A stretch of DNA of 64,000 bases from Cryptosporangium arvum DSM 44712 (GTDB taxonomy: Bacteria > Actinomycetota > Actinomycetes > Mycobacteriales > Cryptosporangiaceae). Positions 40,859 through 45,382 of the stretch are shown in pieces. The DNA lies in the NCBI RefSeq assembly GCF_000585375.1, contig NZ_KK073874.1:4991251-5055250 (forward strand). The letters are read 5' to 3'. The notes below the pieces were generated by a model. That model worked only from the letters and a program-made list of their open reading frames with translations. It searched no databases and was not told the origin of the DNA. The position numbers were made by a program, and so were the translations under genes. Within the stretch, counting starts at the first letter, position 1. Each line of letters opens with the position of its first letter.

Positions 40859-42448
40859 ATGCACTTCCCGCTCCCCCGCCGCCGCTTCCTCGCCCTCGTC
40901 GGCTCGGCCACCGCCGGTTTCGTCGGACCGGCGCTGGTCGGCGCCGACGGCGCGCTCGCCCGCGTCCCCCGCCGCCGCACCGTGCTGCCTCGCGACGTGT
41001 TCACGCTCGGGGTGGCGTCCGGTGACCCGTTACCCGACGGCGTCGTGCTCTGGACCCGGCTGGCGCCGCGCCCGCTCGAGGGTGGGGGCATGCCGCCGGA
41101 GCCGGTCGAGGTGCGCTGGGAGGTCGCCGCGGACGAACGCTTCCGCACGCTCGTGCGCACGGGCACCGCGGTGGCCCGTCCGGCCGGCGCCCACACGCTC
41201 CACGTCGACGCCCGGGGGCTGCGGCCGGGAGCGTCGTACTTCTACCGGTTCCGGGTCGGGGACCAGGCCTCGCCGGTGGGCCGGACCCGGACCGCGCCGA
41301 CGGGTGCGACCCGGCGGCTGCGGTTCGCGACCGCGTCGTGCCAGAACTACCAGGACGGCTACTACACCGCCCACCGCGCGATGGCCGCCGAGGACCTGGA
41401 CTTCGTCGCGTTCCTCGGCGACTACCTCTACGAGGCCGCGCCCTGGCCGGGGTTGCTGCGCGAGCACATCGGACCGGGTCAGCCGTACACGCTCGACGAG
41501 TACCGCAACCGGCACGCGCAGTACCGCACCGACCCCGACCTGGCCCGCGCGCACGCGTCCGCGCCCTGGATCGTCTCGCTCGACGACCACGACGTCGACG
41601 ACAACTGGACCGGCGACGGGGCCGCGAACCCGTCCGAGCCGAGCCCGGTGCCGTTCGCGGCCCGCCGCGACGCCGCGCTCCGGGCCTACGTCGAGCACCT
41701 GCCGGTGCGGGTCGGGCCCGGGCTGCGCCTGTACCGGCGGTTCCGGTTCGGTGACCTGGCCACGCTGCACGTGCTCGACACCCGGCAGTACCGCTCGGCG
41801 CACCCGACCACGGTGGCCGAGGCCGAGGAGCCGTGGCGCTCGATGACCGGACCGGCCCAGGAGCGCTGGCTGCTCGACGGGCTGGTGGACTCCGACGCCC
41901 GGTGGAGCCTGCTCGGCAACCAGGTGCTGCTGGCCGGGAACGACAGCCGGCGCGGCCGGGGCGAGAAGTACAGCTTCGACAGCTGGGACGGCTACCGGGT
42001 ACAGCGCCGGCGGCTGTTGAACTTCCTCGGGACCGGGCTGGCCCCGAACCCGGTCGTGCTCAGCGGCGACCAGCACTGCACCTGGGTCAGCCAGCTCAAC
42101 CCGGACCCGCTCGACGAAGGCTCACGGGTGGTCGGCGCGGAGCTCTCCGGCACCTCGATCTCGTCCGGCGGCGAACCGGACGTCGAGCGGCTGCGCCGGG
42201 AGGACGACGAGACCAGGGCCGACAATCCGCAGCGGCTCTACGTCGACGCCCGGCGCGGGTACCTGCTGGGTGAGCTGACCCCGGACGCGCTGCGGGTGCA
42301 GCTCCGGGTCGTCGACAGCGTCACCGATCGGCGTTCCGGCGGCGCCCGGACCGCGGCCCGCTTCGTGGTGGAGAACGGCCACCCGGGGGTCGGGCTGGAC
42401 GGCCCGCCCGACGTCCACGCCGCCGCCGGTGGCGCCCCGGTCACCTGA
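40859..42448 (+). CDS. phoD: PhoD-like alkaline phosphatase, Tat-exported
   Basis: A 529-aa PhoD-family phosphatase. A Tat signal (PLPRRRFLALVGSATAGFVG) leads to a likely AXA cleavage near GALA. The PhoD N domain (FTLGVASGDPLPDGVVLWTR) is followed by the metallophosphatase core: FATASCQNYQDGYYTAHR, DFVAFLGDYLYE, IVSLDDHDVDDNWTGD, LHVLDTRQYRS and VVLSGDQHCTWV, which supply the Fe/Ca ligands. Secreted PhoD releases phosphate from phosphodiesters and monoesters. AGGGGG precedes ATG. A clear paralogue lies at 45536. The 3' end overlaps the opposing LysE gene by eight bases. Confidence 0.92.
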   Translation: MHFPLPRRRFLALVGSATAGFVGPALVGADGALARVPRRRTVLPRDVFTLGVASGDPLPDGVVLWTRLAPRPLEGGGMPPEPVEVRWEVAADERFRTLVRTGTAVARPAGAHTLHVDARGLRPGASYFYRFRVGDQASPVGRTRTAPTGATRRLRFATASCQNYQDGYYTAHRAMAAEDLDFVAFLGDYLYEAAPWPGLLREHIGPGQPYTLDEYRNRHAQYRTDPDLARAHASAPWIVSLDDHDVDDNWTGDGAANPSEPSPVPFAARRDAALRAYVEHLPVRVGPGLRLYRRFRFGDLATLHVLDTRQYRSAHPTTVAEAEEPWRSMTGPAQERWLLDGLVDSDARWSLLGNQVLLAGNDSRRGRGEKYSFDSWDGYRVQRRRLLNFLGTGLAPNPVVLSGDQHCTWVSQLNPDPLDEGSRVVGAELSGTSISSGGEPDVERLRREDDETRADNPQRLYVDARRGYLLGELTPDALRVQLRVVDSVTDRRSGGARTAARFVVENGHPGVGLDGPPDVHAAAGGAPVT

Positions 42449-43064
42449 GCGAGGCCACCTGCTCGATCAGCAGCAGCGCCCCGACGCTCACCGTCGTGAC
42501 GCCCGAGAGGCGGGTCACGACCGCGGCCGCCGCGGGCCGGGCCCGGAGCACCGTGCGGGCCCCGGTGCCGACACCGGTGTAGACCACCGCGCAGCTGGCC
42601 ACGTGCACGAGGCCGAGCACGGCGATCTGGGCCGCGACCGGCCAGCCGGTGCCGGGCCGGGTGAACTGGGGCAGGAGCGCGAGGAAGAGCAGCAGCACCT
42701 TCGGGTTCAGCCCGCTGACCCCCAGGCCCCGTGCGGCCTGCCGGAGCCGGGAGTCCGGCGGCTCCGCCGTCGCGGCCCGGACCGTGGCGGGGCGCAGGAG
42801 CAGCCCCGCACCGAGCCACACCAGGTACCCCGCTCCGGCGAGGGTCAGGCCGGTCAGCACCCACGGCGAGCGGGCGACGACGGCGGCGACCCCGGCCGCC
42901 ACCACCGCGGTGGCCAGCAGGTGCCCGGCCAGCAACCCGCTCACCGCCGGCAGCACCGTGCGGTGGCGCAGGCCGGCCGCGATCGCGTACGCCCAGTCCG
43001 CACCCGGAACCAGCACCATCACGAACGACACCGCCCAGAACGCGGCGACAGTGTTGACCGCCAT
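42441..43064 (-). CDS. LysE/RhtB-family amino-acid exporter
   Basis: A 207-aa exporter with six hydrophobic helices. The N-terminus AFWAVSFVMVLVPGADWAYA carries the family's PGAD(W/M) motif, and SGLNPKVLLLFLALLPQFTR is the second conserved stretch. These proteins pump amino acids or related amines out of the cell. It is divergent from an Lrp/AsnC regulator, the classical control partner, with operator-like sequence between them. Confidence 0.9.
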   Translation of the reverse strand: MAVNTVAAFWAVSFVMVLVPGADWAYAIAAGLRHRTVLPAVSGLLAGHLLATAVVAAGVAAVVARSPWVLTGLTLAGAGYLVWLGAGLLLRPATVRAATAEPPDSRLRQAARGLGVSGLNPKVLLLFLALLPQFTRPGTGWPVAAQIAVLGLVHVASCAVVYTGVGTGARTVLRARPAAAAVVTRLSGVTTVSVGALLLIEQVASLR

Positions 43065-43155
43065 GACTCCACCTTCCGCTCGTCTGCGTGCAGAAGATTA
43101 GGCGGATTTCACCCGAAGGTGCTTTCAAGATCTCCCCCGCCACCCGGGTGTTGGA

Positions 43156-43169
43156 GGGAGAATCTTCCC
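43156..43169. promoter_or_regulatory. Lrp-type operator candidate
   Basis: GGGAGAATCTTCCC is a 14-bp imperfect palindrome directly before the Lrp gene start. A facing AGAAGATT (43092-43099) lies nearer the LysE gene; its GAAGATT is the complement of AATCTTC at 43161-43167. Paired distant sites are typical of Lrp proteins, which wrap DNA. Confidence 0.45.
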
Positions 43170-43170
43170 C

Positions 43171-43623
43171 ATGGACGACGTCGATCGCGCGATCCTTGCC
43201 GAGCTGCAGAAGGACGGGCGGCTGACGGTCACCGAGCTCGCCGAGCGGGTGCGGCTCAGCCTGTCCCCGTGTCACCGGCGGCTGCGCGCACTGGAGCGCT
43301 CCGGCGCGATCAGCGGCTACCGCGCCCAGCTCGACCCGGCCACCCTGGGGCTGACGTTCAACGCGCTGGTCTTCGTCACGATGCGCACCGCCGACCGCGA
43401 CGCGATCGACGCGTTCGAGGTCGCGGTCGCCGAGGTGCCCTCCGTGCTGCACGCCGAGCGGCTCTTCGGCGACCCCGACTACCTGCTCCGGGTCACCGCC
43501 CGCGACCTGCCCGCCTTCCAGCAGCTCTACGACGACGAGCTCGCCACCCTGCCCGGCGTCCAGCGCCTCTCGTCGACCCTGGTCATGAAGGCCGTGATCC
43601 AGAACCGGCCACTGCCGCTCTGA
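43171..43623 (+). CDS. Lrp/AsnC-family transcriptional regulator
   Basis: A 150-aa regulator of normal length. The HTH spans MDDVDRAILAELQKDGRLTV and AERVRLSLSPCHRRLRALER. The C-terminal RAM (ligand) domain contains VTMRTADRDAIDAFEVAVAE and GDPDYLLRVTARDLPAFQQL. It likely senses an amino acid and controls the divergent LysE exporter and itself. Confidence 0.92.
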   Translation: MDDVDRAILAELQKDGRLTVTELAERVRLSLSPCHRRLRALERSGAISGYRAQLDPATLGLTFNALVFVTMRTADRDAIDAFEVAVAEVPSVLHAERLFGDPDYLLRVTARDLPAFQQLYDDELATLPGVQRLSSTLVMKAVIQNRPLPL

Positions 43624-43633
43624 CCGGCACCGT

Positions 43634-45382
43634 TCACGCGACCAGCGGGACGTCCAGCGGCAGGTGGACGCTGACCTGGGTGCCGGTGGACGAGCTGTCG
43701 ATCGCGGCCCAGCCGGAGAGGACCCGGGCCCGGTCGACGATGCCGGCCAGGCCGCCGCCGGCGGTCGCGTCGGCGCCGCCCGGCCCGTCGTCGACCACGA
43801 AGCCGGACGCCCAGCCGTCGGAGACGGCCACCCGGACGGTGACGGCCGCACCACCGGCGTACTTTGCGACGTTCGTCAGGCCCTCGCAGAGCGCGAAGTA
43901 CAGCGTGGCCTCGACCGCCGGGGGGAGCCGCCCGGGGACGACCTCGACCGCCGCGGTGAGACCGAGCCGCGCCACCACGGTCTGCAGCGCGGGGCCGAGC
44001 CCGCGCTCGGCCAGCGCGGCCGGGAGCAGCCCGCGCGCCAGCGCCTCCAGTTCGCCGACCGTGGCCAGCACCTCCCGGCGGCACTCCCCGGCGAAGTGCC
44101 GGACGGCCGGGTCGGACGTGTGGTCGGTGAGCCCGTGCAACTGGCGCGCGAGCAGGCCGAGGCGGTGCTGCGCGCCCTCGACGAGTTCCTGCTCGAGCCG
44201 CTGACGCTCGGCCAGCTCGCGCTCGGCCAGCCGCTCCTGGGCCGCGAGCACCTGCGCGAGGTTCGCGCTCGCGGCCGCCTGGAGCTGGGCGGTGAGCAGC
44301 GCGGGGCTACCGGCCCGCAGGACGGCGTCGACGAGCAGCGGACGGTCACGCAGGGCCGCGTCGACCTCGACGACGGCCAGCGGGTGCTGGTGCCCGTCGA
44401 CGGCGATGCGCCAGCGCCGGTCGTCGGAGGACGACTCCGGCACGGCCGGCAGCCCCCGCACGTCGACCCAGCCGTTCTCGGCCGGCGCCCAGAAGTACAG
44501 GCGCAGCGACCGGTCGCGCAGCGCCTCGGCGAGCGCGACGCGCACCGTGGCGACCGACGTGCCCGACGACGTGATGCGCACGACGCGGTGCGGCGCGCTC
44601 AGCTCCCACCAGCGGTCGCGCAGCGCGCCGGAGACCAGCGCGGTGGAGACGACGAGCGCGACGACGCCCTGGTTGAAGTAGAACGCCTGCAGCTCCGACC
44701 GGGTGGTCCACGCGCTCGTCACGACCGCGGCCTTGACCGAGCTGAACAGCACCAGGGCGGCCGCGGCGACGAGCACCGGCACCGCGATGCGCCGATCCAG
44801 GCTGGACAGCCAGCGGGCGCGCACCCAGAGCAGCGCGGTGAACCACGCGGCCAGCACCACCTGGGCCGCGGCGAGGACCCGGATCCACGCGTCGAACACG
44901 CTCCGGTCGGCGACGACACCGGGCCAGGAGACGGTGGCCGGCAGGCCGAGCCACTGCGGCTGCGACACCAGCAGCAACACGACACCACCCCCCACCATCA
45001 CCACCGCCGCGCCCGCGACGAACGCCCGGTACCGGTTGGCGACCAGTACACCGGTGGGGTACGACAGGATCGCGGCGCCGGCCAGCACCCAGAAGGAGCC
45101 CTGGCACAGATAGGACACCGCCGGCCCGGGGCCGCGGTCCCAGGAGACCAGCCACGCGAACGGCCAGCAGAACCCGGCCGCGAGCAGGAGCCGCCCGGTG
45201 AACACGCGCCGCGGGCCGCCGGTGGCGAGCAGCGCGCCGGCCGCGGCGAACCCCGCGCATGCGAGACCGGCCACCACGCCGCGGACCGGATGGGACTGCC
45301 AGTAGGGCGCCCCGGAGGCCGCGACCAGCCCACCGGAGACGAGCGCGCAGAGCAGCACCCGGACGATCTGGTCGCGCGACAC
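43634..45382 (-). CDS. NarL-type sensor histidine kinase homologue lacking the phospho-acceptor His
   Basis: A 582-aa membrane protein. The first ~250 residues hold about seven hydrophobic helices (for example VVAGLACAGFAAAGALLATG, AGAAVVMVGGGVVLLLVSQP). A cytoplasmic linker leads to a HisKA_3-like region RQRLEQELVEGAQHRLGLLA. In normal members this reads R-D-L-H-D-G-A-Q; here the His position is Val401 (GTC, codon 44180-44182) and the following Asp is Glu402. The HATPase part looks intact (EGLTNVAKYAGG, VVDDGPGGADATAGGGLAGI). No response regulator is adjacent. It may act as a pseudokinase partner or ATP-dependent sensor. Start GTG 45382. Confidence 0.85.
   Translation of the reverse strand: MSRDQIVRVLLCALVSGGLVAASGAPYWQSHPVRGVVAGLACAGFAAAGALLATGGPRRVFTGRLLLAAGFCWPFAWLVSWDRGPGPAVSYLCQGSFWVLAGAAILSYPTGVLVANRYRAFVAGAAVVMVGGGVVLLLVSQPQWLGLPATVSWPGVVADRSVFDAWIRVLAAAQVVLAAWFTALLWVRARWLSSLDRRIAVPVLVAAAALVLFSSVKAAVVTSAWTTRSELQAFYFNQGVVALVVSTALVSGALRDRWWELSAPHRVVRITSSGTSVATVRVALAEALRDRSLRLYFWAPAENGWVDVRGLPAVPESSSDDRRWRIAVDGHQHPLAVVEVDAALRDRPLLVDAVLRAGSPALLTAQLQAAASANLAQVLAAQERLAERELAERQRLEQELVEGAQHRLGLLARQLHGLTDHTSDPAVRHFAGECRREVLATVGELEALARGLLPAALAERGLGPALQTVVARLGLTAAVEVVPGRLPPAVEATLYFALCEGLTNVAKYAGGAAVTVRVAVSDGWASGFVVDDGPGGADATAGGGLAGIVDRARVLSGWAAIDSSSTGTQVSVHLPLDVPLVA

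Follow-up and report, generated by a model that had tools for sequence, protein, structure and literature searches.

What can a histidine kinase homologue do when the residue that should accept the phosphate is no longer a histidine? To our knowledge, few histidine pseudokinases found in nature are understood in detail, the model being DivL of Caulobacter. The question arises at 43634-45382 of the window (the whole 64,000-nucleotide stretch of DNA analyzed), where the initial annotation had described such a homologue, with the reading frame, strand, and coordinates all placed correctly. The gene is laid out as follows.

43634..45382, minus strand: HisKA_3/DesK-type histidine kinase homologue without a phospho-acceptor His (582 aa, GTG start; orthologues 65-69% identical)
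44615..45382, minus strand: N-terminal membrane part, residues 1-256, seven to eight helices (hydropathy peaks)
44216..44614, minus strand: cytoplasmic linker, residues 257-389 (82% mean identity among orthologues over 257-385)
43973..44215, minus strand: DHp domain, residues 390-470, drifting (alignment with the DesK DHp; pN/pS 0.60 over 13 members)
44180..44182, minus strand: codon 401, GTC (Val), the phospho-acceptor position (R, H, and R in orthologues)
43655..43933, minus strand: CA (ATP-binding) domain, residues 484-576 (Pfam HATPase_c match at 491-576)
43856..43891, minus strand: N-box, residues 498-509, LCEGLTNVAKYA (96-100% identity inside subclades)
43772..43792, minus strand: G1 box, residues 531-537, DDGPGGA (invariant in 13/13)
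43736..43759, minus strand: G2 box, residues 542-549, GGGLAGIV (GGGLAG invariant in 13/13)

The hydropathy profile has seven segments with a Kyte-Doolittle mean above 1.4, and an eighth is plausible by eye at about residues 64 to 81, in line with the initial count of about seven helices. The linker, the most conserved broad region among the orthologues, is GAF-like by inference only. The ATP-binding motifs are intact, as had been noted, with an N-box core (EGLTNVAKY), G1 (DDGPGG), G2 (GGGLAG), and a terminal GT all present. A structure prediction of the DHp and CA domains from the one sequence was poor (mean pLDDT of 57).

The label "NarL-type kinase" given at the outset was misplaced: NarL is a response regulator, not a kinase, and the relevant family is HisKA_3/DesK-NarX. 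A family profile matched the DesK structures of Bacillus subtilis (3gig and others) over positions 375-574 with an E value of ∼4e-9, and the window kinase is homologous in its DHp and CA domains to solved HisKA_3 kinases. Its Pfam scores are low, with 15.4 bits for HisKA_3 (curated cut-off of 24) and 15.8 bits for HATPase_c (curated cut-off of 26.4). At E values up to 1, HisKA_3 was matched in 7 and HATPase_c in all 13 members of the clade described below (best HATPase_c value, 6.7e-7). Judged by its sequence, the protein is a HisKA_3 (DesK/NarX-type) histidine kinase by descent.

The family profile aligns His188 of DesK with residue 401 of the window kinase, which is Val (GTC at 44182-44180) and is followed by Glu402, as initially reported. 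The HDxxxQ phosphatase motif is absent: the sequence reads V-E-G-A-Q-H, with His406 in place of the canonical phosphatase Gln (His+5). We found syntenic orthologues, 65-69% identical, in three congeneric genomes, with Arg (G003), His (G001), and Arg (G002) at position 401. The possibility raised in the initial annotation that the orthologues all carry His was thus not borne out. The check it suggested, whether orthologues share the substitution, gave a mixed result: the His is replaced in two of the three, by Val in none, and it is kept in G001. These proteins are part of a 13-member clade that is confined to the genus and spread over four genomes (3 to 4 genes per genome); 11 of the members lack the His (10 Arg and 1 Val); the two that bear it are L004, which is the G001 orthologue, and L046. 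Nine of the members are paralogues forming a second subclade, 49-52% identical, eight of them with Arg and one with His. Val is therefore peculiar to the window kinase and Arg is the usual residue of the lineage, written by three codons (CGT, CGC, and CGG), while position His+5 is R, H, or Q across the clade. Chance and a sequencing error are ruled out by the loss of the His in 11 of the 13 members and the varied Arg codons. By its sequence, the window kinase would be a pseudo-histidine kinase in the sense of DivL, having a kinase fold that lacks the phosphorylatable His and sharing this lack with relatives, the orthologue L004 excepted.

Outside the clade, every X-box-bearing homologue examined keeps the His, and a search of public genome contigs for relatives returned one distant match only. 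In the window's own genome, we gathered 81 distinct HisKA_3 cores, first with a PF07730 search and then with a core profile, and 76 of them keep the His. The other five are the window kinase, two paralogues (both Arg), and one core in each of two double-core proteins (Asp and Glu). These last, L143 (G000:C1:3958800-3962200) and L172 (G000:C1:4220300-4223700), carry two HisKA_3 cores per polypeptide, with His in one and Asp or Glu in the other, and are built-in pseudo-dimers. Across the 13 clade members, no cytoplasmic His is invariant; the only His shared by all, H31, lies close to the membrane region.

In the tree, the 13 members group as a single clade (100/100), and the sister group consists of congeneric His-bearing kinases that adjoin a response regulator. 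When the X-box columns are left out of the tree building, the state of the acceptor position switches between His and not-His at least three times; an AU test of the 11 His-less rows as one clade gave a p value of 0.033, a weak rejection of a hypothesis that was posed after seeing the tree. L046, which has the His, sits within a group of Arg-bearing paralogues, and by parsimony its His is a regain. Alternatively, gene conversion between paralogues is possible, because L032, L036, L040, and L047 have common flanking genes yet do not group in the tree.

Over all 13 members, pN/pS (uncorrected Nei-Gojobori proportions, near saturation at synonymous sites) is ∼0.007 in the N, G1, and G2 boxes, 0.44 in the CA domain, 0.60 in the DHp domain, and 0.80 in the membrane part. 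The G1 and G2 boxes show synonymous codon variation within the clade, which, together with the near fixation of the ATP motifs, argues that the sequence is not simply decaying. The neighboring His-bearing tandem kinases show the opposite pattern, with an X-box identity of 1.00 and a G1 identity of 0.51-0.63. Since the ATP motifs are near-fixed, the cytoplasmic part offers no other invariant His, and the phosphatase Gln has been lost, we infer from these alignments that selection holds the ATP site while the clade gives up phospho-acceptance, and with it self-phosphorylation.

The flanks of the 13 clade loci were read by sequence search, mostly over 4-8 kb on each side (one flank of L035 covers ∼2 kb, up to the end of its contig). 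No clade kinase has its own response regulator in these flanks, which extends to the whole clade what had been noted for the window kinase; the lone response regulator encountered (L033) adjoins another kinase. Most HisKA_3 kinases of the window genome, and the sister clades, do have a response regulator beside them. In the three congeneric genomes, the orthologue shares the neighborhood of the window kinase: one flank carries PhoD-like, TetR-like, and MFS genes, the other PhoD-like, STAS, and MEDS/HATPase genes, these names being partly from Pfam and otherwise read off the sequence. In G001-G003, a gene for a phosphate-binding-like protein, present once per genome, lies immediately upstream of the kinase.

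L102:6938-8494, same strand as the orthologous kinase: PBP_like_2 gene
L103:6563-8191, same strand as the orthologous kinase: PBP_like_2 gene
L104:6574-8388, same strand as the orthologous kinase: PBP_like_2 gene

This gene is absent altogether from the window genome, and a PBP-like gene was not found as a recurrent neighbor of the second subclade. The PhoD-like and PBP-like neighbors give at most a hint of phosphate. No co-inherited neighbor is common to the whole clade, synteny being confined to sub-loci. At the window locus, a LysE-type exporter and an Lrp/AsnC regulator (42441-43623) separate the kinase from the PhoD-like gene, an arrangement confined to the window genome and with no counterpart at the orthologous loci of the other three genomes. 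Elsewhere, L045:4751-6280 (G002:C10) encodes the N-terminal membrane module of the clade kinases fused to an unrelated, kinase-less C-terminus. The kinase of the L043/L049-type locus, complete elsewhere, is represented in the window genome only by a short ORF of 204 aa (L182:3473-4009, at about G000:C1 8868472-8869008), perhaps a truncated form.

The initial proposal of a pseudokinase, which would bind ATP without autophosphorylating normally and would perhaps regulate another kinase, fits all of this sequence evidence, because the His has been lost repeatedly, the ATP motifs are under strong purifying selection, and neither a conserved substitute His nor, in the flanks read, a cognate regulator is found; only the Val on which it was based is a peculiarity of the window copy, in a lineage that has Arg. 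Pseudo- and split histidine kinases are already known as a kind, of which this clade would be a variant. The window kinase resembles DesK in its DHp and CA fold family, as judged by profile, and in its several membrane helices, and differs from it in having V401 and His406 where DesK keeps His188 and Gln193, the latter positioning water in the phosphatase reaction (PMC5231405), and in having no adjacent response regulator. It carries the very same substitution as the engineered DesK H188V, which abolishes the activity of full-length DesK, the H188V homodimer being dead (PMC8301901). In two-chain TM1/TM5 DesK, an H188V chain paired with a His-bearing chain signals, the CA domain of the H188V chain phosphorylating the His of its partner; signaling was seen in one of the two arrangements tested, the reverse TM1/TM5 arrangement being almost inactive (PMC8301901). 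In nature, CheA3/CheA4 of Rhodobacter sphaeroides is a split kinase (PMC3591291), with ATP-binding and phosphorylatable halves on different proteins, as would be the case here in our reading. Unlike CheA4, which lacks the whole P1 domain, the window kinase has a residue swapped and its DHp retained, and its partner is a candidate only. An actinobacterial case is the ChrS variant of Corynebacterium glutamicum, a pseudokinase whose effect runs through HrrS, a paralogous kinase (PMC9491836). This variant is a laboratory-evolved frameshift that lost its CA domain, whereas the window kinase is altered in the opposite half.

We propose that the window kinase is the ATP-competent half of heterodimers with a His-bearing kinase, donating phosphate in trans or setting its partner allosterically, a reading that we put at slightly less than an even chance on the sequences at hand. 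A membrane sensor of the DesK/HisKA_3 kind would have given up its own His and its phosphatase Gln while its ATP site was selected, and would work only with a His-bearing kinase, through a DHp-mediated heterodimer. Acting in trans, its CA domain would pass the gamma-phosphate to the His of the partner, and the partner would then phosphorylate its own response regulator according to what the sensor's membrane domain detects. Alternatively, the ATP-bound sensor would merely set the kinase/phosphatase state of the partner. The two clade members with His (L004 and L046) count against the heterodimer model, and so does the possibility that the conserved ATP motifs serve conformational control by ATP with no phosphotransfer.

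The window kinase has ATP motifs without an acceptor residue, as expected of one half of a split kinase, and its genome also contains paralogues that bear the His and have a defective ATP site. At a kinase-response regulator-kinase locus (L034:5098-9373, G000:C1:6985098-6989373; regulator at L034:6840-7517), the first kinase has an intact X-box and no N or G boxes; the second has an intact His but lacks G1 and the ATP lid, a loss confined to the window genome, since the orthologous loci L038, L042, and L048 retain an intact second kinase. Likely partners would be close paralogues, above all these tandem kinases, but this is speculative: no partner kinase is linked to the window kinase gene, and the complementary defects are a coincidence, not evidence of contact. 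Furthermore, the ATP-defective kinases adjoin their own regulator, and one kinase of each pair keeps its ATP site in the other three genomes, so that an outside donor is not generally needed.

A different role for the window kinase would be that of a DivL-like allosteric pseudokinase or decoy. Such a protein never donates phosphate; it acts by binding a kinase or a response regulator, which it switches or sequesters. DivL, a natural His-less kinase in which the other motifs are present, has Tyr at this position (Ala in Magnetospirillum) and regulates the kinase CckA via DivK binding (PMC4211667); moreover, DesKC H188V still binds the receiver domain of its regulator (PMC5231405), and the X-box and DHp of the clade are still recognizable. 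However, DivL binds ATP weakly (PMC4211667), whereas the ATP boxes are near-fixed and the most conserved part of the clade proteins, and the DHp, the docking surface for regulators and kinases, belongs to the more variable regions. We regard this role as possible but rather unlikely. DivL is a PAS-type HisKA protein, unlike these polytopic membrane HisKA_3 proteins of a mostly Arg-bearing lineage. Still less probable is another ATP-dependent output, whether as an ATPase or phosphotransferase on a non-kinase substrate or with the HATPase fold as an ATP sensor. The absence of an own response regulator from the flanks read at the clade loci, the PhoD-like genes flanking the locus, and the single-copy PBP-like gene, directly downstream of which three of the four orthologues lie, would suit such an output, but neither the patchy occurrence of the PBP-like gene, missing from the window genome and not recurrent beside the second subclade, nor the retention of the DHp dimerization helices does.

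That the window copy is a gene on its way out, decaying after the loss of its PBP-like partner and its His, is very unlikely. It does score 15.8 bits for HATPase_c, under the cut-off, versus 29.9 bits in L004, its genome lacks the PBP-like gene, and, of the four orthologues, it has the largest number of private changes in the CA domain (11 versus 1-7). Nevertheless, its ORF is intact with every ATP-motif residue kept, the private changes are spread much as in the His-bearing L004, and the loss of the His is common to 10 other members in four genomes. Least credible of all is a sequencing error or an active kinase that uses another His, for which His406, five residues downstream of Val401, would be the example. 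A non-His residue at position 401 in 11/13 sequences, orthologues included, contradicts an error, and at position 406 the orthologues have His, Arg, Arg, and His, the paralogues Arg or Gln.

A bolder form of the heterodimer proposal, which we consider doubtful, would make these orphan membrane sensors, at the level of the genus, dedicated ATP-donor subunits that trans-phosphorylate His-bearing, ATP-dead paralogues, in a family-wide single-residue split of DesK-type kinases with an occasional regain of the His (L046). The window kinase is a natural counterpart of the engineered DesK H188V, and the idea of a split kinase or heterodimer is testable with existing assays. In this expanded actinobacterial lineage of DesK-type kinases, selection visibly parts ATP binding from phospho-acceptance.
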